Origin: Thereva unica
Taxonomy: Eukaryota; Arthropoda; Insecta; Diptera; Therevidae
NCBI GenBank assembly: GCA_949987705.1
Contig: CATLJY010000081.1
Location: 124,001 to 188,000 of the forward strand
Reading direction: 5' to 3'
DNA length: 64,000 nucleotides
Below are positions 17,252 through 61,812 of the stretch, in pieces. The stretch's first letter is position 1. The number at the start of each line of letters is the position of its first letter. The notes beneath the pieces were generated by a model that was given only the letters and a program-made list of their open reading frames with translations, was not told where the DNA came from and ran no database searches. The translations under genes and the position numbers were made by a program.

Positions 17252-18360
17252 GGGGGGGGGGGTGTTCCAAAATAACACCGTTAAGAAAATCGAACCCTAA
17301 ACGTTTTTGGGGTCGCTGATCACGAAAATCGAGGTCCCGCGGTCCCAAAATTAGGGCGTCACCCCTAAAAATGCAAAAAACCCCCCCTTTTAGGGGGTTT
17401 TCGCGATTATTTCAATAATAATGAAAACTAATGCGATGAAATGAACTTTTTTTAATATTTATTTGCGAAGGGGATTGATTTATACTAAATTTAGGCGAGC
17501 TTAATGGTAAGGGGTACCCCTAAAGGGTTGAAAGTACCCCTAAATTGGCGAAAAATGGCAAAAATTGTAAAAAAATTTTTTTTCAAGTTTTTGCTTGAAA
17601 TTCGATTGTGGGCGTACTGTCAGGCAAAAATAAATTATTTTCAACCCTTAAGGGGTTAAAACTACCCCTACTATATAGTTAATTGAAAACTAGGGGGGGG
17701 GTGTTCCAAAATAACACCGTTAAGGAAATCGAACCCTAAACGTTTTTGGGGTCGCTGATCACGAAAATCGAGGTCCCGCGGTCCCAAAATTAGGGCGTCA
17801 CCCCTAAAAATGCAAAAAACACCCCTTTTTAGGGGTTTTTCGCGATTATTTCAATAATAATGAAAACTAATGCGATGAAATGCACTTTTTTAATATTTAT
17901 TTGCGAAGGGGGTAGATTTATACTAAATTTAGGCGAGATTAATGGTAAGGGGTACCCCTAAAGGGTTGAAAGTACCCGTAATTGGCGAAAAATGGCAAAA
18001 ATTGTAAAAAAAATTTTTTTTTCAAGTTTTTGCTTCATATTCGATTGTGGGCGTACTGTCAGGCAAAAATCAATTATTTTCAATCCTTAGGGGGTTAAAA
18101 CTACCCCTACAATATAGTTAATTGAAAACTAGGGGGGGGGGGTGTTCCAAAATAACACCGTTAAGAAAATCGAACCGTAAAGGTTTTTGGGGTCGCTGAT
18201 CACGAAAATCGAGGTCCCGCGGTCCCAAAATTAGGGCGTCACCCCTAAAAATGCAAAAACCCCCCTTTTTAGGGGGTTTTCGCGATTATTTCAGTAATAA
18301 TGAAAAATAATGCACTTTTTTAAATATTTATTTGCGAAGGGGGTTGATTTATACTAAATT
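17252..18360 (+). repeat. Left arm: direct tandem units, 439-441 bp period
   Basis: Each unit begins with a G-run of 9-13 and GGTGTTCCAAAATAACACC, itself a short inverted motif, and ends ATATAGTTAATTGAAAACTA. Units 1 and 2 are complete and unit 3 is cut by the SINE. Divergence between units is low, mostly in homopolymers, consistent with recent array expansion or conversion. Confidence 0.88.
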
Positions 18361-18823
18361 TTTTTTTTTATGTGAAAGACTAGAGTCACAGGAGGAAACG
18401 CCCTTTATACTGTGTCGACAATCTATTTTCTTCATATAGAGTGCAATGTCGAACAGCAGCTCTAGTCGGGGAAGGAAGGAACTGTCACAACCTACCAGCG
18501 ATATTTTTGCAGGCCACCTACTCCCAACCATTACTGGCGACTTTGTCATCGGGGCATCGAGAAACAACTCGCTGGAGTGTTATGCCTCCTGAAACGAGTT
18601 GAATCACATCAACCAACCGATGACATGCGCTTTTGGTGAAGCGGGGAAGCGCTGACTAAGGCTATGACAGAAGGAATCAGGAATGTAAAGAGGGAAGAAG
18701 AAAGAAGGAAAGTTATGTAGGTGGGAAAGTGGAAAAGGCGAAGGACCGTGGGGCTGGCCGGGATTCGAACCAGGGACCTCTGGGATAGTAGCCAGTCGCC
18801 TTACTCCCTAGGCTACCGAGGCC
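18361..18823 (-). mobile_element. tRNA-derived SINE with LINE-like 3' tail
   Basis: On the minus strand the element starts GGCCTCGGTAGCC and contains a pol III A-box-like sequence (TAGCCTAGGGAG, 18804-18815) and an exact B box (GGTTCGAATCC, 18761-18771), at tRNA-like spacing. It runs through a 350-bp body to TCTAGTCTTTCACAT and an A-run at 18361-18370. The target duplication is AAATT (18356-18360 and 18824-18828), inside a unit of the fold-back element. The 3' TCTTTCACAT-A(n) end resembles the 3' end of the CR1-like LINE copies in this window (for example 39605-39630 reversed), suggesting shared retrotransposition machinery. Confidence 0.82.
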
Positions 18824-48750: not shown

Positions 48751-48889
48751 AGTCTGAAATGCAAAAGCCCACTGGAATGGCATTCTTCTATTTCAGTTGA
48801 TTACTCTCTTTTGAACGAGCTTGTACCTTCCAGTTGGCGAACTGAGGTTTGTTTATACTTAGTTGGATATGTAGAAATTTTATGCCACC

Positions 48890-51145
48890 TGGGGTTATTT
48901 TAAAGTTCAGTTCGCCAATTTACTCGAACTTGCGCACCTCGTCCGGGAAGTCGAATATTACATCATTTTACTCGCTCACCACTCCGCATGGATTCTTGAA
49001 CTTAATACCACAGTCTCTAATTATCGTACCTCCTACAATAACACAATTATTTACGACTTCAAGAATGCGAATTATATCAGTATTGGCCGTGAATTATCCC
49101 TGGTTGACTGGGAGCATAGGCTATCAGGTAATGATCTTGACGAAGTAGTATTATGCTTTTATACTATTCTTTTTAGCATCATTGACAAACATGTACCCAG
49201 GATTAAAAAAAGGGATAAATTATCGGAACCATGGCTGAATAAGGATATTCGTTCGCTTCGTAATCATAGAAATAAATTGTATAATATGATTAGAAATAAC
49301 CTCAACGTAAATGCGGATTTTAAATTAGCATACACTAGGTTAGCCTCTGAATTTAGTGTTAGGTCACGCGAGGCCTACATATACTACATATCTCAACTCT
49401 ATCGGAAATAGCATCATAAATGACCCCAAGAAGTTTTTCGCTTTTGTTAATACAAAACGAAAGACCTTAGGCTATCCGACAACAATGACAAACGGTAGTA
49501 AACACTCTTCGTGCCCCCAAGAGATCTGTAGCATGTTTGCTGATAAGTTCAGCAAAGTTTATTGCCCCAAGTCCAATTCTAATACGCACACTGACACTTT
49601 TCTTATAAATAATCTTATAGATAATCTTTCCCTGTCTGTTGACGATATAATGTCCGGTTTAAATAATCTCGACACTAATAAAGGTCACGGCCCAGACAAT
49701 GTACCTGAAATTCTCCTGAAGCTGCTCAAAAGAGGAACTGCTTCCGCTCCACCTTATCTTTAACAAATCATTATCGCTAGGAAAGTTTCCTAATATATGG
49801 AAGAAATCCTACCTCACGCCAATTCATAAAGCTGCTGATAAACAATCGGTCGGCAACTACAGAGGCATTGCTATCTTATCATCGATCCCTAAACTTTTCG
49901 AGAAACTTATTCATGACAAGATCGCCCCCTTAATCGATCCTCATCTCAACGAAGAACAACACGGTTTCAGAAAAGGGCGCTCAACCACTTCTAACCTTAT
50001 GGTTCTAACCTCCGAAGTGCTTTGTGGGATGGAGAACGGTTATCAAATCGATGCTGTTTATACTGACTTCAGCAAAGCTTTTGACCGAGTTGACCACAAT
50101 ACCTTAATTTCAAAGCTTTTTAAATTTGGAATTTCGGGACTTCCGCTGGAATGGATAAAATCATATCTTGACGGAAGATCACAGGTTATCAGATTCCAAG
50201 GATTTCTATCGAAGGAGATTGACGTCACTTCCGGCGTTCCTCAAGGCAGCCATCTAGGCCCTCTACTTTTTAATATATTCATCTCTGACTTATCTGAAAA
50301 ATTAGGTAATATTCCTCATCTCTTCTACGCAGATGACCTCAAAATATATAGCACCATTAAGTCCCAAGCCGACGTATCATTTCTCCAGTCGAAACACAAA
50401 GTATTGCAAGATTGGTGCATAGCCAATAAATTACATCTCAACACTGACAAGTGCCATGCAATTACTTTCTCTCGAAAGAAAACCACTCATCTGCACAAAT
50501 ATTATCTCAATGGCTAGATATTGAATCATGTCGATCATATTGTGGATTTAGGTGTTGTCCTAGACAAGAAACTAAATTTCAATATGCACTATGATAATAT
50601 TACTGCCAGGGCCAATAAGCTTCTTGGCTTTATAAAGAGAAGGGCTAAAGAGTTCGGTAATGTATGGGTTACAAAAACACTTTTTGTTCCTTAGTCCGCC
50701 CAATCCTGGAATGCGCTTGCTCGGTCTGGGATCCCATTTTCGAAGTTAACAGGATCAGGATTGAATCTGTTCAAAAGAAATTTCTCCTTTTTGCTTTGAG
50801 ACATCTGCATGATCCGCACGATTTTCAAGCCATGTCCGGCTCAAAGTTTTAGAGCTTATGCCACTGTCGACGAGGAGAAAAATGCTTATTTCATGCCTTA
50901 CCCTGGACATTATAAATGACAACCTTAAAGTACAGTTTCTATCGCGCATGATCAAATTCAATGATGATGTTCGACATACAAGACATACGAAACTTCTTAA
51001 GGAATACCCGCACCTCACTGAATATGGAAGAAACGAGCCCGTCAACAGAGGTTGTATGGTCTTCAATAGCCATGGATCATGTTTTTCCCCTACAATTGAT
51101 AAAATATCCTTTAAGAAAAAACTTAGATCCCTACTTATAGCATGA
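48890..51145 (+). pseudogene. Jockey-type LINE polyprotein remnant
   Basis: In order: linker (ISIGRELSLVDWEHRL near 49070, DIRSLRNHRNKLYN near 49245), a shift near 49390, FFAFVNTKRKT and DTNKGHGPDNVPEILLKL, a shift near 49745, then RT in one frame to 50517: SVGNYRGIAILSSIPKLF, QHGFRKGRSTTSNLMV, YTDFSKAFDRVDHNTL, TSGVPQGSHLGPLLFNIF, FYADDLKIY (catalytic DD) and NTDKCHAITF. A TAG at 50515 follows, then C-terminal pieces with CSLVRPILECACSVWDP and 50858-51145. Inactive but fairly young. Confidence 0.78.
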
Positions 51146-54859: not shown

Positions 54860-54864
54860 GTCGG

Positions 54865-56629
54865 TGTTTTTTATACAAAAACTTTAAACAAATAGCGGAA
54901 TTTCTCTGACGCTTCTAACTGCAGTACACCTGTGAAAAAAAAAGGTAAAGAAACAAAAACCAAATAAAAGAAGAAGAAGTAGGATTCAGTTACAACAGTT
55001 CAAATTTATTCATGATAATTCAAATATCAGTAATTCAATAAAATTCAAGTTCCTATAAATTAGTTCAAATTTAGTTATTTAGTTTTAGTTAATTAGTTTA
55101 GTTAGTAAGTTTATTAATTCAAATTTCAATAAAGAACAAAACTTCTGATAATTAAAGATTTGTCAAATTATTTAGTCAAATGACGATTTAATCAAAGTTT
55201 ACTTAATTCACCCTCAACAATGTTGGAAACTATAATTCAATTTCTTAATAACTTCAATATACAAAAGGGATAAAAACTTTGACAATTCATAAGTTAACAA
55301 AGTATTAATTCAAGTGAAGACTCACTCAAAATTTATTTGGATCACCCTCGACAATGTTGAAAACTATAAAATTCAATCTCATCACCTCGTCAACGATGTA
55401 AGCTATGAATTAATTATCGAATTGCAAAAATCACCTCTACAACGTTGTTCACTAAATCGCGAAGTTTAAAATTTCGAAGAAATAATAAATTCAATCACCG
55501 AATCACAAAGGAAATAAAAGAGAAAAGAAAAAAATATATATATAGAATTTTATCAGCATATAAATGAGGTACTCACCTGTTTTTTAGAGTTGACCTTGAA
55601 CTTGTATGACAAAAAGGAAATTACTGTTGTATGAAAACAACAAGGAAAGGAAGTACTGTGTTGATGGTCGAATCCCAACAACACAGTAAAGATTAATATC
55701 TTTGTTGATGGTCGAATCCCAACAACAAAGAAAGGTTAGTAGTTTGTTATGGTCGAAACCCAAAACAAACGAAATTAATAAGCCTTGTTGATGGTCGAAT
55801 CCCAACAACAAGGAAAATTAGTAAATCTGTTAATGGTCGAAGCCCAAAAACAGAAAAAGGTTAGTAAACCTTGTTGATGGTCGAATCCCAACAACAAGGA
55901 AAATTAGTAAACCTGTTAATGGTCGAAGCCCAAAAACAGGAAAAGGTTAGTAAACCTTGTTGATGGTCGAATCCCAACAACAAGGAAAATTAATAAATCT
56001 GTTGTTGGTCGAAACCCAACAACAGAGGAAAGTTAGAAATGGAAAAAAAAAAAAAAAAGAATAAGGAGGAAAAAAGGAACAAGTCCAGGATCAACTTACC
56101 TCGGTGAAGCTCCGGTGCAGAGAGAGCGAGCGTTTCGTTCGCAACAACATTTAATCGTTTGCTTGAATTTCAAGTTCAAGTGGGGATACAAAAGAAAACC
56201 GTAACGTTTGAAGTGATTTTTGCTTCGACGATAAAAGTGGGAATGCTAATTTATGTGTAAGCGTGTATTGAGGTGATGGGGTTACCAGAGTAAATTTTGA
56301 ATGAATATCGTAAATTGAAAATTAATTCTAATAAAATTAAATTATATTAATGTTAATGACGATGTAATTTGATGATGACTAATGTGGCGATCTTGGCCAA
56401 ATATGATGATGTTTATGTTTTGATGGATGTCCATTAGTAGCCAAATGACCAATCTTCCTTATTCAGAGGTTCCGAAAATGTGTAATTAAACCTGTTCCTC
56501 ATCAATAAATGTTATTCATCTGTAATAATAAAAAATTAAATGCCCTAAAGGTGATTCGGTGATTGGATTTTAATCCGACAGAATTCAAAGGATAACGAAG
56601 AAATTCCTCGCTGTGAAAGTATTTGAACA
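54865..56629 (-). repeat. 3' LTR (left copy)
   Basis: Near-identical to 60043-61807; the only difference noticed is in an A-run at about 56043 (AAATGG vs AAATGGG). At 55624-56026 it carries an array of hairpins. At 55208-55460 it carries four looser repeats of the type CACCCTCAACAATGTTG, also self-complementary. AATAAA motifs are present but I could not fix R/U5 borders. Confidence 0.92.
55624..56026 (-). repeat. Array of nine covarying hairpins in the LTR
   Basis: Units at about 42-46 bp spacing share the core TGGTCGAANCCCA. In each, TGG pairs with CCA around a 7-nt loop TCGAANC, and flanking bases form an outer stem of 6-10 bp that differs between units yet stays paired: ACTGTGTTG/CAACACAGT (55655), TCTTTGTTG/CAACAAAGA (55699), GTTTGTT/AACAAAC (55742), CCTTGTTG/CAACAAGG (55783, 55869, 55955), TCTGTT/AACAGA (55826), CCTGTT/AACAGG (55912) and TCTGTTG/CAACAGA (55998). 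A degenerate tenth, lacking the core, precedes at 55624. Inner and outer stems are separated by one or two A-A mismatches. Repeated in the other LTR. Confidence 0.9.
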
Positions 56630-56641
56630 TACTCCCCCCCG
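56630..56641 (-). promoter_or_regulatory. Polypurine tract
   Basis: On the minus strand ACGGGGGGGAGTA lies directly upstream of the TGTTC start of the 3' LTR. Position and composition fit the plus-strand primer of reverse transcription. Confidence 0.75.
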
Positions 56642-58190
56642 TTGAAACATTTTGGTATGTTTCAAAACAGTAAATTAACAAATCACCTTAAGGTGTTGAA
56701 ACTAAATGGGAGAAGAGGAAGGGGAGAAACAATAGATGAACTGAAACAATGGCGCTAGACTCAGTAACGTTTATTAGCCCAAGTCGACCTTGATGAATTG
56801 AGAAAAAAAAATAAATAAAATAAGAGAAGAGGGAATAGAGAAGCTATAAATAAATAAACCATAACTTCGATCGAGTAACTTTTACTAATCCATTTTGCAA
56901 CACCTTGAGTTTAATAGTGTCTCCATTACTAAAATGAAGACCCATTTTACGTCGGGATGTTTATAACAAATATTTAAACGAAAATGTTTGTGTTTCTGCA
57001 TAATTGTCCTCATCGTTTCAAAACTAAGTAGCAAATAAACAATCACCATGATTCTAGCATTGAATAGGTAAATGATCAATGGGATTGGCTAAAGGGAAGC
57101 AAAACAATACAAACTAATTATGAATATTTTTGTTAATCCATCCAGCTAGAAATGTATCTTCATTAGGATACGCATGAAATTGACATTTTATCATCTCCAA
57201 GTAATTGGTTTCGATATAATACATATGTAGTCCATCTAATTTTCACTAAGGCCTTGAAAAACAAAGCGAGTGGCCCAAAATATGAATTTTAATTCTCTCA
57301 ATGAAGGTAATTCCCTGAATTTATTTTTATTTCATTATTGATCTCGGTTACGTCTTTGTAAGAGACGATGATCCTATGACTTGACTGTTTTGAACTTTGT
57401 ACCATATTATTTGTTTGCGTTTTCGTATATAGTATATGCAATGATCGGTATGAGTTGTTCAAAGATAGCGGTGACAAATAATTAATTGATAACAAAGGGA
57501 ATTGAGAGAGTGAATCTTTTATGATAACAAAATTGTTAATATTCAACTGTTAGAAAAATTTTATTACAAGGAATTTAGTTACAGCTGACTTAATTTCAAG
57601 TTCAAGGTTAAGTGACTATTGAGGCTGTTAATGAAGAGATTTGTACAACTAAATTTGAAAATGAAGCAGAGTGGATGGACTGAAATTAAATGCGATTTGT
57701 TCAACTGATATTAGGTTAGATTAGGTTTATCAGGAATCAATTTTCAGACTTGGAATGTGTAATCCTTAGTACAGGGCTTGTAATTAGTTTTATACCTGTT
57801 GAAAGTATCAATTATGTCAAAGGAAATAATATTTTTTTTTTTTTTTTTTCAGATTTTATATGTGTGGGATTTATATGATTGTGTTAAGAAAGTTAACGGC
57901 GGTAAAGAAAGTTGAATTATTTTATGTGGACACAGAATCTCAAGACATAAATTATAGCCAGTTGTTATGTAGGTTGATCATGATTGTTCTGATTAAAAAA
58001 GGGGATATGAAATCTTCCCCTGAGATTGCGTAGTGCGCAGTTGTGCAGGTTGTTGTATTAATTTACCTGCAATTCGAGGACTATTGAATTTGAAAGGGAT
58101 AATAGTTATTTTATGAAGTGGTTAAAGTTGAATTGTTTGAGTTACTGGCATTTATTGACTGGGTAGAATATTGTTAGGAAAGTTAGAATA
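56642..58190. other. Internal region of BEL element, no coding sequence seen
   Basis: The position where pol would lie. Only short frames are present (56885-57079, 57298-57546) and none shows protease, RT, RNase H or integrase motifs. A run of T at about 57833-57849 is notable. The sequence does not look like a decayed pol. Confidence 0.6.
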
Positions 58191-58196
58191 TGAGGG

Positions 58197-58775
58197 TTAT
58201 TTTGAAGAATAAATAAAATACGAAGAAACGCTTGATTTTGGTTTCATTATGCGACGTTTATTGTTATTAGGGGCTACTGGTGTTGCGTTGGACGTTGGAC
58301 ATCGTTCCTTGCATTGAGACGCTTGTGATGTTTTAACTGCTAACTGTTTGTCCGCAGCAGTTGAGTACATTAAAATATCCTTGTGTCTTGTAGGTAACAT
58401 ATTATTTGTAAAATTTAATGAATTAACAGTGATTAATGAATTACTTGTGTAGCAAATTGGTTTAGATGAGCTAAGAAAGACGTTACAATTATTGGGAGAT
58501 GAAATTAATTTTAATTTAGGTAAGGTTTCTGTAGATGTAATCGGAAAGGGATCTGTTTTCAAATTTGCATTTCTTTTACTTGATAAGTTAGTTTTGCCAT
58601 TAATTCTATTGCTGAATTCTTTACATGTAACAGTTTTCGAGGACGTCATCGTCTTCTTATCAGCTGTTAAAGATATGAATAAGGGTTTGTTAAGACTAGT
58701 ATTTGAAATATTTTCAGAATCTGTAACAACTGGTAGTAGCTTGGGAATGTGTGCCAATGGACGAGGTGTGCACAC
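58197..58775 (-). pseudogene. Gag C-terminal-like ORF of BEL element
   Basis: A 192-codon open frame, rich in S, T, N and K, after the zinc-knuckle region and in a different frame from it. In BEL/Pao the protease follows at this point, but I see no DSG/DTG-type active site. The frame may be the end of gag or a leftover spacer; it ends at 58197 close to AAT-rich sequence. The start assigned at 58775 is arbitrary. Confidence 0.45.
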
Positions 58776-58807
58776 AGGAGCTGTTGATCGTGATGAGTGC
58801 GATCCAC

Positions 58808-59100
58808 TTAAATATGGTTGACGCGTTTTTTGGGAGTTGAACTTTGTAAAGAATTTTTGTGTAGTAAAGTATGATGAGTTTTACCGCAGTTTCTGCATCT
58901 AAACTTACTAGAGCAATTTGAAGTGGAGTGAGAATTTGAAAGACAGTTAAAACACAATTGGTTTGCCTTTACAATGCCATACTTTTGTTGATGGGAGAGA
59001 TTTGAAAATTTAGAACATGTTGACAATGTATGAGATTTTTACAACACGGACAAGTAGTCGCTGTGGTGTAAGAGAATGGGTGAGAAATTTGGAATTTGAT
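58808..59100 (-). pseudogene. BEL/Pao gag zinc-knuckle region
   Basis: Minus-strand trace in two frames: TCPCCKNLIHCQHVLNF (about 59065-59015), then ANQLCFNCLSNSHSTSNC and CRNCGKTHHTLLHK. This CPxC...CFNCL...C...CxxC..HHTLLH series is typical of BEL/Pao gag, where it lies before protease. A shift is needed near 58980. The large N-terminal gag part is missing and the tandem repeat occupies its place. Stop at 58808. Confidence 0.7.
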
Positions 59101-59164
59101 CCAATAGATGGGCATATATGTAAGAACTAAACTCTTATAAACACTTGATGTGGAAGAAGTTGAT

Positions 59165-59900
59165 ATTGATGAGAACTCGCCTCGAGAGTGTAATAAATTA
59201 GGTTGGTATGAAAACCTTCCAATTGATTTGATTACAAATGAGGGACTTGCCTCGGAGAATGGTATAATTGAGACTAGGCTCATGTAAATTTAGCTTGGTG
59301 CTTAAGACCTTGCAACAGGTGAGGGACTTGCCTCGAGAGTGTACTAAATTAGGTTGGTATGAAAACCTTCCAATTTATTTGATCTCAAATGAGGGACTTT
59401 CCTCGGAAAATACTATAGTTGAGGACTAGGCTCATGTAAATGTAGCTTGGTGCTTAAGACCTTGCAACTGGTGAGGGACTTGCCTCGAGAGTGTAATAAA
59501 TTGGGTTGGTATGAAAACCTTCCAATTTATTTGATCTCAAATGAGGGACTTTCCTCGGAAAATACTATAGTTGAGGACTAGGCTCATGTAAATGTAGCTT
59601 GGTGCTTAAGACCTTGCAACAGGTGAGGGACTTGCCTCGAGAGTGTAATAAATTGGGTTGGTATGAAAACCTTCCAATTTATTTGATCTCAAATGAGGGA
59701 CTATCCTCGGAAAATACTATAGTATTACTACTAGGCTCATGTAAATTTGCTGGGTGCTTAAGACCTTGCTATGGGTGAGGGGCTTGCCTCAAGAAAATTA
59801 TAAATTTTAAGACCAGGCTTGAAATAAAAATAACTTGGTGTGTAAGACCTTGCTATGGGTGAGGGACTTGCCGTGAAAATAATAAATTGAAACACTGGTC
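59165..59900. repeat. 152-bp tandem repeat in BEL leader, about 5 units
   Basis: GTGAGGGACTTGCCTCGAGA marks units at 59319, 59471 and 59623; a diverged unit start lies near 59167 and another at 59775, a constant step of 152 bp. Each unit contains GGTTGGTATGAAAACCTTCC, itself a hairpin (GGTT...AACC). It lies between the 5' LTR and the gag remnant of the minus-strand element. Confidence 0.88.
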
Positions 59901-60022
59901 TTAAAAATAGAAAGTCACTGAGCACTAGGTTCACATAGATGTTTGATATTAAGATCTTATAAAATGATAACTTTAATTTCACTTGACTCCTTTTAAACAC
60001 TATGCACTGCACTTAGAAACAC

Positions 60023-60040
60023 ATCCGGCTCGAAGGACCA
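60023..60040 (-). promoter_or_regulatory. Primer-binding site
   Basis: TGGTCCTTCGAGCCGGAT on the minus strand begins two bases after the 5' LTR end. It starts with TGG, as sites pairing with a tRNA CCA end do, and matches the GGTCCTTCGAGCCGG motif I associate with BEL elements. The tRNA identity was not determined. Confidence 0.7.
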
Positions 60041-60042
60041 TA

Positions 60043-61807
60043 TGTTTTTTATACAAAAACTTTAAACAAATAGCGGAATTTCTCTGACGCTTCTAACTGC
60101 AGTACACCTGTGAAAAAAAAAGGTAAAGAAACAAAAACCAAATAAAAGAAGAAGAAGTAGGATTCAGTTACAACAGTTCAAATTTATTCATGATAATTCA
60201 AATATCAGTAATTCAATAAAATTCAAGTTCCTATAAATTAGTTCAAATTTAGTTATTTAGTTTTAGTTAATTAGTTTAGTTAGTAAGTTTATTAATTCAA
60301 ATTTCAATAAAGAACAAAACTTCTGATAATTAAAGATTTGTCAAATTATTTAGTCAAATGACGATTTAATCAAAGTTTACTTAATTCACCCTCAACAATG
60401 TTGGAAACTATAATTCAATTTCTTAATAACTTCAATATACAAAAGGGATAAAAACTTTGACAATTCATAAGTTAACAAAGTATTAATTCAAGTGAAGACT
60501 CACTCAAAATTTATTTGGATCACCCTCGACAATGTTGAAAACTATAAAATTCAATCTCATCACCTCGTCAACGATGTAAGCTATGAATTAATTATCGAAT
60601 TGCAAAAATCACCTCTACAACGTTGTTCACTAAATCGCGAAGTTTAAAATTTCGAAGAAATAATAAATTCAATCACCGAATCACAAAGGAAATAAAAGAG
60701 AAAAGAAAAAAATATATATATAGAATTTTATCAGCATATAAATGAGGTACTCACCTGTTTTTTAGAGTTGACCTTGAACTTGTATGACAAAAAGGAAATT
60801 ACTGTTGTATGAAAACAACAAGGAAAGGAAGTACTGTGTTGATGGTCGAATCCCAACAACACAGTAAAGATTAATATCTTTGTTGATGGTCGAATCCCAA
60901 CAACAAAGAAAGGTTAGTAGTTTGTTATGGTCGAAACCCAAAACAAACGAAATTAATAAGCCTTGTTGATGGTCGAATCCCAACAACAAGGAAAATTAGT
61001 AAATCTGTTAATGGTCGAAGCCCAAAAACAGAAAAAGGTTAGTAAACCTTGTTGATGGTCGAATCCCAACAACAAGGAAAATTAGTAAACCTGTTAATGG
61101 TCGAAGCCCAAAAACAGGAAAAGGTTAGTAAACCTTGTTGATGGTCGAATCCCAACAACAAGGAAAATTAATAAATCTGTTGTTGGTCGAAACCCAACAA
61201 CAGAGGAAAGTTAGAAATGGGAAAAAAAAAAAAAAAGAATAAGGAGGAAAAAAGGAACAAGTCCAGGATCAACTTACCTCGGTGAAGCTCCGGTGCAGAG
61301 AGAGCGAGCGTTTCGTTCGCAACAACATTTAATCGTTTGCTTGAATTTCAAGTTCAAGTGGGGATACAAAAGAAAACCGTAACGTTTGAAGTGATTTTTG
61401 CTTCGACGATAAAAGTGGGAATGCTAATTTATGTGTAAGCGTGTATTGAGGTGATGGGGTTACCAGAGTAAATTTTGAATGAATATCGTAAATTGAAAAT
61501 TAATTCTAATAAAATTAAATTATATTAATGTTAATGACGATGTAATTTGATGATGACTAATGTGGCGATCTTGGCCAAATATGATGATGTTTATGTTTTG
61601 ATGGATGTCCATTAGTAGCCAAATGACCAATCTTCCTTATTCAGAGGTTCCGAAAATGTGTAATTAAACCTGTTCCTCATCAATAAATGTTATTCATCTG
61701 TAATAATAAAAAATTAAATGCCCTAAAGGTGATTCGGTGATTGGATTTTAATCCGACAGAATTCAAAGGATAACGAAGAAATTCCTCGCTGTGAAAGTAT
61801 TTGAACA
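60043..61807 (-). repeat. 5' LTR (right copy)
   Basis: Same length as the left LTR, offset by exactly 5,178 bp. It carries the same hairpin array at 60802-61204. For the minus-strand element this is the promoter-bearing 5' LTR. Frames of 75 codons at the same place in both LTRs are translations of the hairpin array and are not credible genes. Confidence 0.92.
60802..61204 (-). repeat. Hairpin array, second LTR copy
   Basis: Identical by eye to the array at 55624-56026, offset by 5,178 bp. On the transcribed (minus) strand the loop region reads TTGGGATTCGACCA, close to the reverse complement of a pol III B box with one base missing, and so similar to a tRNA T-arm. Confidence 0.88.
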
Positions 61808-61812
61808 GTCGG

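Follow-up and report, generated by a model that had tools for sequence, protein, structure and literature searches.

A tandem array of covarying hairpins and AYUAA linkers in the LTR of a BEL/Pao retrotransposon family

In a 64,000-nucleotide stretch of DNA from Thereva unica (contig CATLJY010000081.1, positions 124,001 to 188,000; hereafter the window), we found that the LTR of a BEL/Pao retrotransposon carries an array in which sense-strand hairpins alternate with AYUAA linkers resembling branch points, an arrangement that is new here. The anatomy of the array, the covariation of its stems, the AYUAA motif and its position between conserved splice-site-like sequences can all be read from the DNA. 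We propose, with a probability of about 0.45, that the array is a cis-acting RNA that would serve as a branch-point and STAR-protein platform in a leader intron of this family and would control splicing or retention. An earlier note on this DNA had described the hairpins and had missed the AYUAA linkers, the flanking splice-site-like signals and the non-autonomous status of the element in the window.

The element, its family and its array

The window element possesses LTRs with TG..CA ends, a short target-site duplication, a tRNA primer binding site (PBS) and a purine tract, placed as follows.

54865..61807, minus strand: whole LTR element, non-autonomous (LTR pair 99.94% identical, TG..CA ends, duplicated GTCGG)
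54860-54864 and 61808-61812: target-site duplication GTCGG, flanking both ends of the element
60043..61807, minus strand: 5' LTR, 1765 bp
54865..56629, minus strand: 3' LTR, 1765 bp, with a single difference from the 5' LTR, at 56043
60024..60040, minus strand: PBS TGGTCCTTCGAGCCGGA
56630..56640, minus strand: G-rich tract GGGGGGGAGTA adjoining the 3' LTR, likely polypurine tract

Since the PBS runs from 60040 downwards and the G-rich tract lies beside 56630, the element is on the minus strand, where the order is LTR, TA, TGGTCCTTCGAGCCGGATG, internal region, GGGGGGGAGTA and LTR. The PBS TGGTCCTTCGAGCCGGA fits what we take to be the 3' end of tRNA-Tyr. A search of three ORFs of the internal region against Pfam gave 0 matches, and LTRs and short internal pieces are what the element has in common with full-length copies; by sequence it is a recent non-autonomous member of its family, with no sign of coding capacity of its own in those three ORFs. 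Inside it, four tandem 152-bp repeats are found at 59175-59794; full-length copies have weaker versions of them immediately internal to the 5' LTR.

Genome-wide (910 Mb, 930 contigs), exact matches to TGGTCGAANCCCAA numbered 1,545 (678 + 867), compared with 15 for a reversed control. Full-length copies (L025-L027) have LTRs ~98% identical to the window's; L027 has a 1752-codon reading frame, and 1637 codons of the L026 frame lie inside the stretch analysed. When searched in three pieces against curated cut-offs, the L026 frame scored above them for DUF1759, Peptidase_A17 (Pao; 2e-40), Integrase_H2C2 and DUF5641, and below them for RVT_1 (29.4 vs 29.6), the integrase core rve (25.1 vs 32.6) and aspartyl protease (21.2 vs 24.3). 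Because of these polyprotein matches and the ~98% LTR identity, we assign the LTR to a BEL/Pao family with a Pao-type polyprotein in its full-length copies, in agreement with the earlier note. A tblastn search with the polyprotein gave 0 matches in the neighbouring stretches L070-L074, and viral contigs gave 0 matches to one exact pattern.

The array and its linkers are present in both LTRs, with coordinates here given for the 3' copy unless stated.

55654..56026, minus strand: nine-hairpin array (fold z -11.2)
55654-55688, 55699-55731, 55742-55770, 55783-55813 and 55826-55854, minus strand: hairpins 1-5
55869-55899, 55912-55940, 55955-55985 and 55998-56026, minus strand: hairpins 6-9
60832..61204, minus strand: identical nine-hairpin array in the 5' LTR (offset +5178)
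55625..55642, minus strand: tenth hairpin, degenerate, without the core
55693..55994, minus strand: eight AYUAA linkers between the hairpins
55693-55697, 55736-55740, 55775-55779 and 55818-55822, minus strand: linkers 1-4
55861-55865, 55904-55908, 55947-55951 and 55990-55994, minus strand: linkers 5-8
55060..55106, minus strand: second ACUAA cluster, seven sense copies (LTR positions 1524-1570), upstream of the second acceptor-like site

On the plus strand, the exact core TGGTCGAANCCCA starts at 55665, 55709, 55750, 55792, 55834, 55878, 55920, 55964 and 56006, and the core starts of the 5' LTR array span 60843-61184. The nine units with a shared core and the stems quoted earlier were thus recovered, with the same set in the other LTR, as was the T-A pair that replaces A-A in the last unit. 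Each unit of ~43 nt starts with a linker, in which AYUAA(Y) occurs together with a stretch poor in G and rich in pyrimidines, and continues with a hairpin that, in the sense strand, comprises a covarying stem, a U.U mismatch, UGG/CCA and a 7-nt loop GNNUMGA. The 13-bp core is strongly conserved, the closing UGG/CCA hardly varies and most loops fit G-N-N-U-M-G-A; the single loop sequence that the earlier note had given to all units is not conserved, being altered in the sense strand to GACUCGA and GUAUAGA in related subfamilies. Folding of the array gave z-scores of -11.2 (minus strand) and -9.8 (plus strand), and as good a fold was obtained in 0 of 100 dinucleotide shuffles for each.

We sampled 67 arrays (the window plus 16, 30 and 20 loci), each with at least one clean core, in which 2-9 units were chained, mostly 7-9, short stretches possibly having cut some arrays. 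One array (L058) contained a fused unit whose left arm belongs to one type and whose right arm belongs to a second, with its outer pairs broken, which is possibly a trace of recombination inside the array. Another locus (L095, G000:C2:90074900-90077900) displayed a satellite-like expansion of 70 hairpin units, spaced 41-43 nt apart over 3 kb; two types made up 54 of these 70 units, and the expansion adjoins an LTR match, with matches running on to ~90081561.

AYUAA is a branch-point motif and also a site for STAR proteins. In the window array, each of the eight linkers contained AYTAA. Among 188 linkers taken from 37 of the 67 arrays (68 distinct), AYTAA was found in 59 of the 68 distinct linkers (shuffled 3.9; reversed 2; reverse complement 7) and YTAAY in 62 (shuffled 13.7; reversed 11; reverse complement 20), although shuffle tests here and below overstate independence because linkers and units are related by descent. 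Across the window LTR, ACTAA occurred 14 times in sense and twice in antisense (dinucleotide shuffles: mean 2.6, maximum 8; n = 200), and 12 of the 14 sense copies formed two clusters, both with an acceptor-like site downstream; the second cluster overlaps a 14-bp repeat called by TRF at 55070-55112. Five further LTRs of the family (one partial) carried 11-14 sense and 1-2 antisense copies. The eight linker motifs of the array are predicted to be unpaired to an uneven degree, from 0.41 to 0.93, against a mean of 0.44 for the array.

Compensatory change in the stems

From the 67 loci came 46 distinct arrays with 55 arm types; 26 types were present in at least two distinct arrays, where "distinct" means differing in sequence, so that differing LTRs of one insertion would count twice. 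Over these 26 arm types, standard pairs filled 251 of 260 cells (96.5%), whereas with slid partners 23-71% of cells paired. Both sides had changed in 5 of the 10 stem pairs (2.2 in shuffles), and the other 5 never varied. The covariation score was 0.226, compared with 0.068 for shuffled and at most 0.102 for slid partners, and was reached by 0 of 500 shuffles; further pair types were matched by 5 of 500. Pair k2, second from the core, occurred as G-C, U-A or C-G, and pairs k7 and k8 each occurred as U-A, C-G or G-C. Between two unit types a single base differs on each arm (GTTTGTTT/AAACAAAC versus GTTTGTT/AACAAAC). Stem change on one side only was not found across the loci read. The U.U mismatch at k1, beside the core, was retained in 23 of the 26 types, and four arm types have two adjacent U.U. 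Wobble departures (7 G.U versus 8 A.C) carried no strand signal, and their asymmetry was dropped as a strand test.

On a minimum spanning tree of the first 48 units, we counted 6 compensated columns where 1.9 were expected (P = 0.0014; K = 8), or 7 where 3.5 were expected (P = 0.0116; K = 9). In a cleaned set (87 of 109 units, the 22 without a clean core being dropped, plus at most 2 long edges per run), tree P values were 0.0002-0.0044 for k1-k7, 0.05-0.26 for k1-k8 and 0.27-0.76 for k1-k9, and the uncleaned set, misaligned units included, gave 0.007-0.94. Event counts on the tree are therefore significant for the inner stem and not with the outer columns in the enlarged set. We conclude that a few independent double changes have preserved the inner stem and that pairing at the outermost positions is kept only loosely.

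The compensatory change that the earlier note had read from nine units thus extends across the loci read and exceeds the slid and shuffled controls, as would be expected of a structured RNA under selection; the part of that claim supported by tree counts is the inner stem, and covariation above background, evident against both kinds of control, is less clear on the tree. As the earlier note had suggested, the better reading is a folded RNA.

Splice-site-like surroundings and a proposed leader-intron switch

We called donor- and acceptor-like sites against what we take to be the splice-site consensus, and found both on the sense strand of the LTR only. In the sequences below, a slash stands at the putative splice point.

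56094..56102, minus strand: 5' splice-site-like GAG/GTAAGT (SD1; GT begins 56099, and at 61277 in the 5' LTR copy)
55577..55600, minus strand: conserved block resembling a small exon, 24 nt long on the assumption that ACAAG/ is the acceptor
54930..54953, minus strand: 3' splice-site-like pyrimidine tract TTTCTTTACCTTTTTTTTTCACAG/ (5 of 6 aligned rows)

SD1 was present in 8 of 9 aligned rows, the ninth having an insertion. It lies where, at LTR sense position 531, a conserved stretch terminates in CGAG/GTAAGTTG; past this point, identity to four related copies drops from 0.93 to 0.70, 0.64 and 0.37 per 20-nt step. The array occupies LTR sense positions 604-976, between SD1 and the small-exon-like block. 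The block, ACAAG/TTCAAGGTCAACTCTAAAAAACAG/GTGAGT, has an identity of 0.97 and 0.85 over two 15-nt steps (0.80 before, 0.72 after) and ends in CAG/GTGAGT (SD2; GT begins 55576; 8 of 9 rows); its start follows the last hairpin by 34-59 nt in the 31 arrays, of 37, where a block was found. Further on, at LTR position 1700, the pyrimidine tract terminates in CACAG/GTGTACTG.

All eight AGs of the window array lie in predicted stems (unpaired ≤0.03), AG is absent from six of 20 diverged arrays, and GUAUAGA loops carry one. An arrangement of tandem 3' splice sites, one per unit, was rejected, as the stem-end AGs of the window are predicted to be paired and are missing in many diverged units. A genome search for the exact exon1-exon3 junction found none. 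With 2 mismatches, three matches were found (L067, L068 and L069; 16 for the reversed control), and these were rejected as spliced copies: L069 is the acceptor itself, and L067 and L068 are not junctions. The search for exon1-exon2 junctions gave 0. This absence of spliced genomic copies agrees with the packaging of unspliced RNA and equally with no splicing.

We suggest that the array would form the branch-point region of a 5'-leader intron. SF1/U2 snRNP on the repeated AYUAA sites would promote splicing, and a Quaking/HOW-type STAR protein on the same sites would repress it; the hairpins would space the AYUAA sites, hold them open and conceal AGs from use as 3' splice sites, and the balance between spliced messenger and unspliced genomic RNA would be tuned by the number of units. 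The AYUAA motifs and the acceptor-like sites are present by sequence, and we infer the transcription start, the splicing and the protein binding at the array. More tentatively, and with some doubt on our part, tandem duplication within the LTR may have built an adjustable splicing rheostat of hairpin-insulated branch-point/STAR sites whose copy number sets the amount of unspliced, packageable RNA. To our knowledge, there is little description of how BEL/Pao elements share out a single transcript to translation and to packaging. Existing in many copies with graded divergence and unit number, the array provides a natural experiment for studying both tandem branch points and STAR-protein control of a mobile element.

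Parts of this proposal have counterparts in published work. SF1 and QKI (Quaking) compete at ACUAA branch sites in mammalian cells, and QKI binding upstream of RAI14 exon 11 requires both of two ACUAAC motifs, which lie 34 and 43 nt before the 3' splice site (PMC13004596). RAI14 intron 10 is like our array in placing several ACUAA(Y) close upstream of a 3' splice site or splice-site-like sequence; unlike it, the array, where binding and splicing are predicted, has mostly 7-9 units at ~43-nt spacing with covarying hairpins between and resides in a retrotransposon LTR. In flies, HOW binds CUAAC motifs through its STAR domain with nanomolar Kd, and among HOW(S)-bound testis transcripts with a 3'-UTR motif, 21% have several (PMC12868882). 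These HOW sites are in 3'-UTRs, not introns, whereas the array lies in a predicted intron.

Alternative readings and related elements

In retroviral leaders, Psi hairpins often lie downstream of the splice donor and are then carried by unspliced RNA alone. The array could likewise be a packaging or dimerisation signal that marks full-length genomic RNA for Gag, only unspliced RNA carrying it, which we consider unlikely. Its location downstream of SD1 fits such a signal equally well, and packaging could coexist with a splicing switch; the hairpins are repeated with a conserved GNNUMGA loop, and 0 spliced genomic copies were found (exon1-exon3 exact, exon1-exon2). The array is also kept in a non-autonomous element that has only short internal pieces in common with full-length copies, but the LTR is kept whole anyway, so that this retention is weak evidence. 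A packaging signal leaves the AYUAA linkers unexplained, and the self-complementary loop UCGA, able to kiss, becomes UAGA in one subfamily. Kissing of UCGA loops in dimerisation was rejected as the main function on account of those UAGA loops. For MLV, one study treats Psi as a dimerisation and packaging element, and reports that spliced SD' RNA also carries Psi (PMC2925334). The MLV Psi and dimer linkage hairpins resemble the array as a leader hairpin cluster downstream of a splice donor; the array differs in being made of tandem, near-identical units inside an LTR, with AYUAA linkers.

Alternatively, the array might be under no selection, if tandem duplication and homogenisation were accompanied by inverted-repeat correction through template switching in reverse transcription, such that the arms stay complementary. 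Such turnover would suit the range of 2 to 9 units across 67 loci, the 70 units in 3 kb at L095, the two-type unit fused once in L058 and the spanning-tree tests that are non-significant with outer columns (K = 8 and 9, enlarged sets). However, correction should erase the U.U mismatch too, which 23 of 26 types keep and four types have twice in a row; moreover, the loop and closing pairs are nearly invariant while the stems vary in matched fashion, and AYUAA is kept in the linkers. We therefore think purely neutral turnover quite unlikely. It seems very improbable that the array acts as DNA, either as tandem sites (an enhancer or insulator) bound by a protein of the host or of the element, or as cruciforms: the 13-bp core is strongly conserved and repeated in an LTR, and G.U and A.C are about equally frequent, but a sequence-specific DNA site has no need of arms that vary yet stay complementary, and the AYUAA and splice-site signals are sense-specific, even if covariation alone is compatible with cruciforms. 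The likeness to a pol III B box or tRNA T-arm raised in the earlier note is barely credible as an explanation. Although plus-strand GGTCGAANCC equals what we take to be the B box GGTTCGANNCC minus one base, the PBS and the G-rich tract place the element on the minus strand, so that the likeness is antisense to its transcript rather than on the transcribed strand, and the antisense loop is not conserved. An Rfam search of the window had no family at or above its threshold, and the array contains no predicted tRNA.

We also compared the window element with other retrotransposons. Achilles, a BEL/Pao element of the olive fly, is similar in its tRNA-Tyr type PBS and TG/CA LTR ends and differs in LTR length (672-674 bp vs 1765 bp here); the text on it contains neither "hairpin" nor "splic", and mentions LTR repeats in a figure legend (PMC4580426). 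Non-autonomous LTR elements of Culex are, like the window element, non-coding with tandem repeats, but the Culex repeats are described as not specific to a family, and the text on them has neither "stem-loop" nor "hairpin" (PMC3286476). Retrozymes share with it the status of non-autonomous retrotransposons with a conserved structured RNA, which in their case is a hammerhead ribozyme (PMC4918200); in the window, no Rfam family was above threshold. A search of the open PMC literature on hairpins, tandem repeats and ACUAA in LTR retrotransposons listed no report of such an array. Elsewhere in the window, ORFs at 48846-50517 resemble pieces of a LINE-type element, with an RVT_1 match in 49720-50517, and long-period tandem repeats occur at 1106-1604, 1721-2120 and 17253-18361 (periods 121, 204 and 439 bp).
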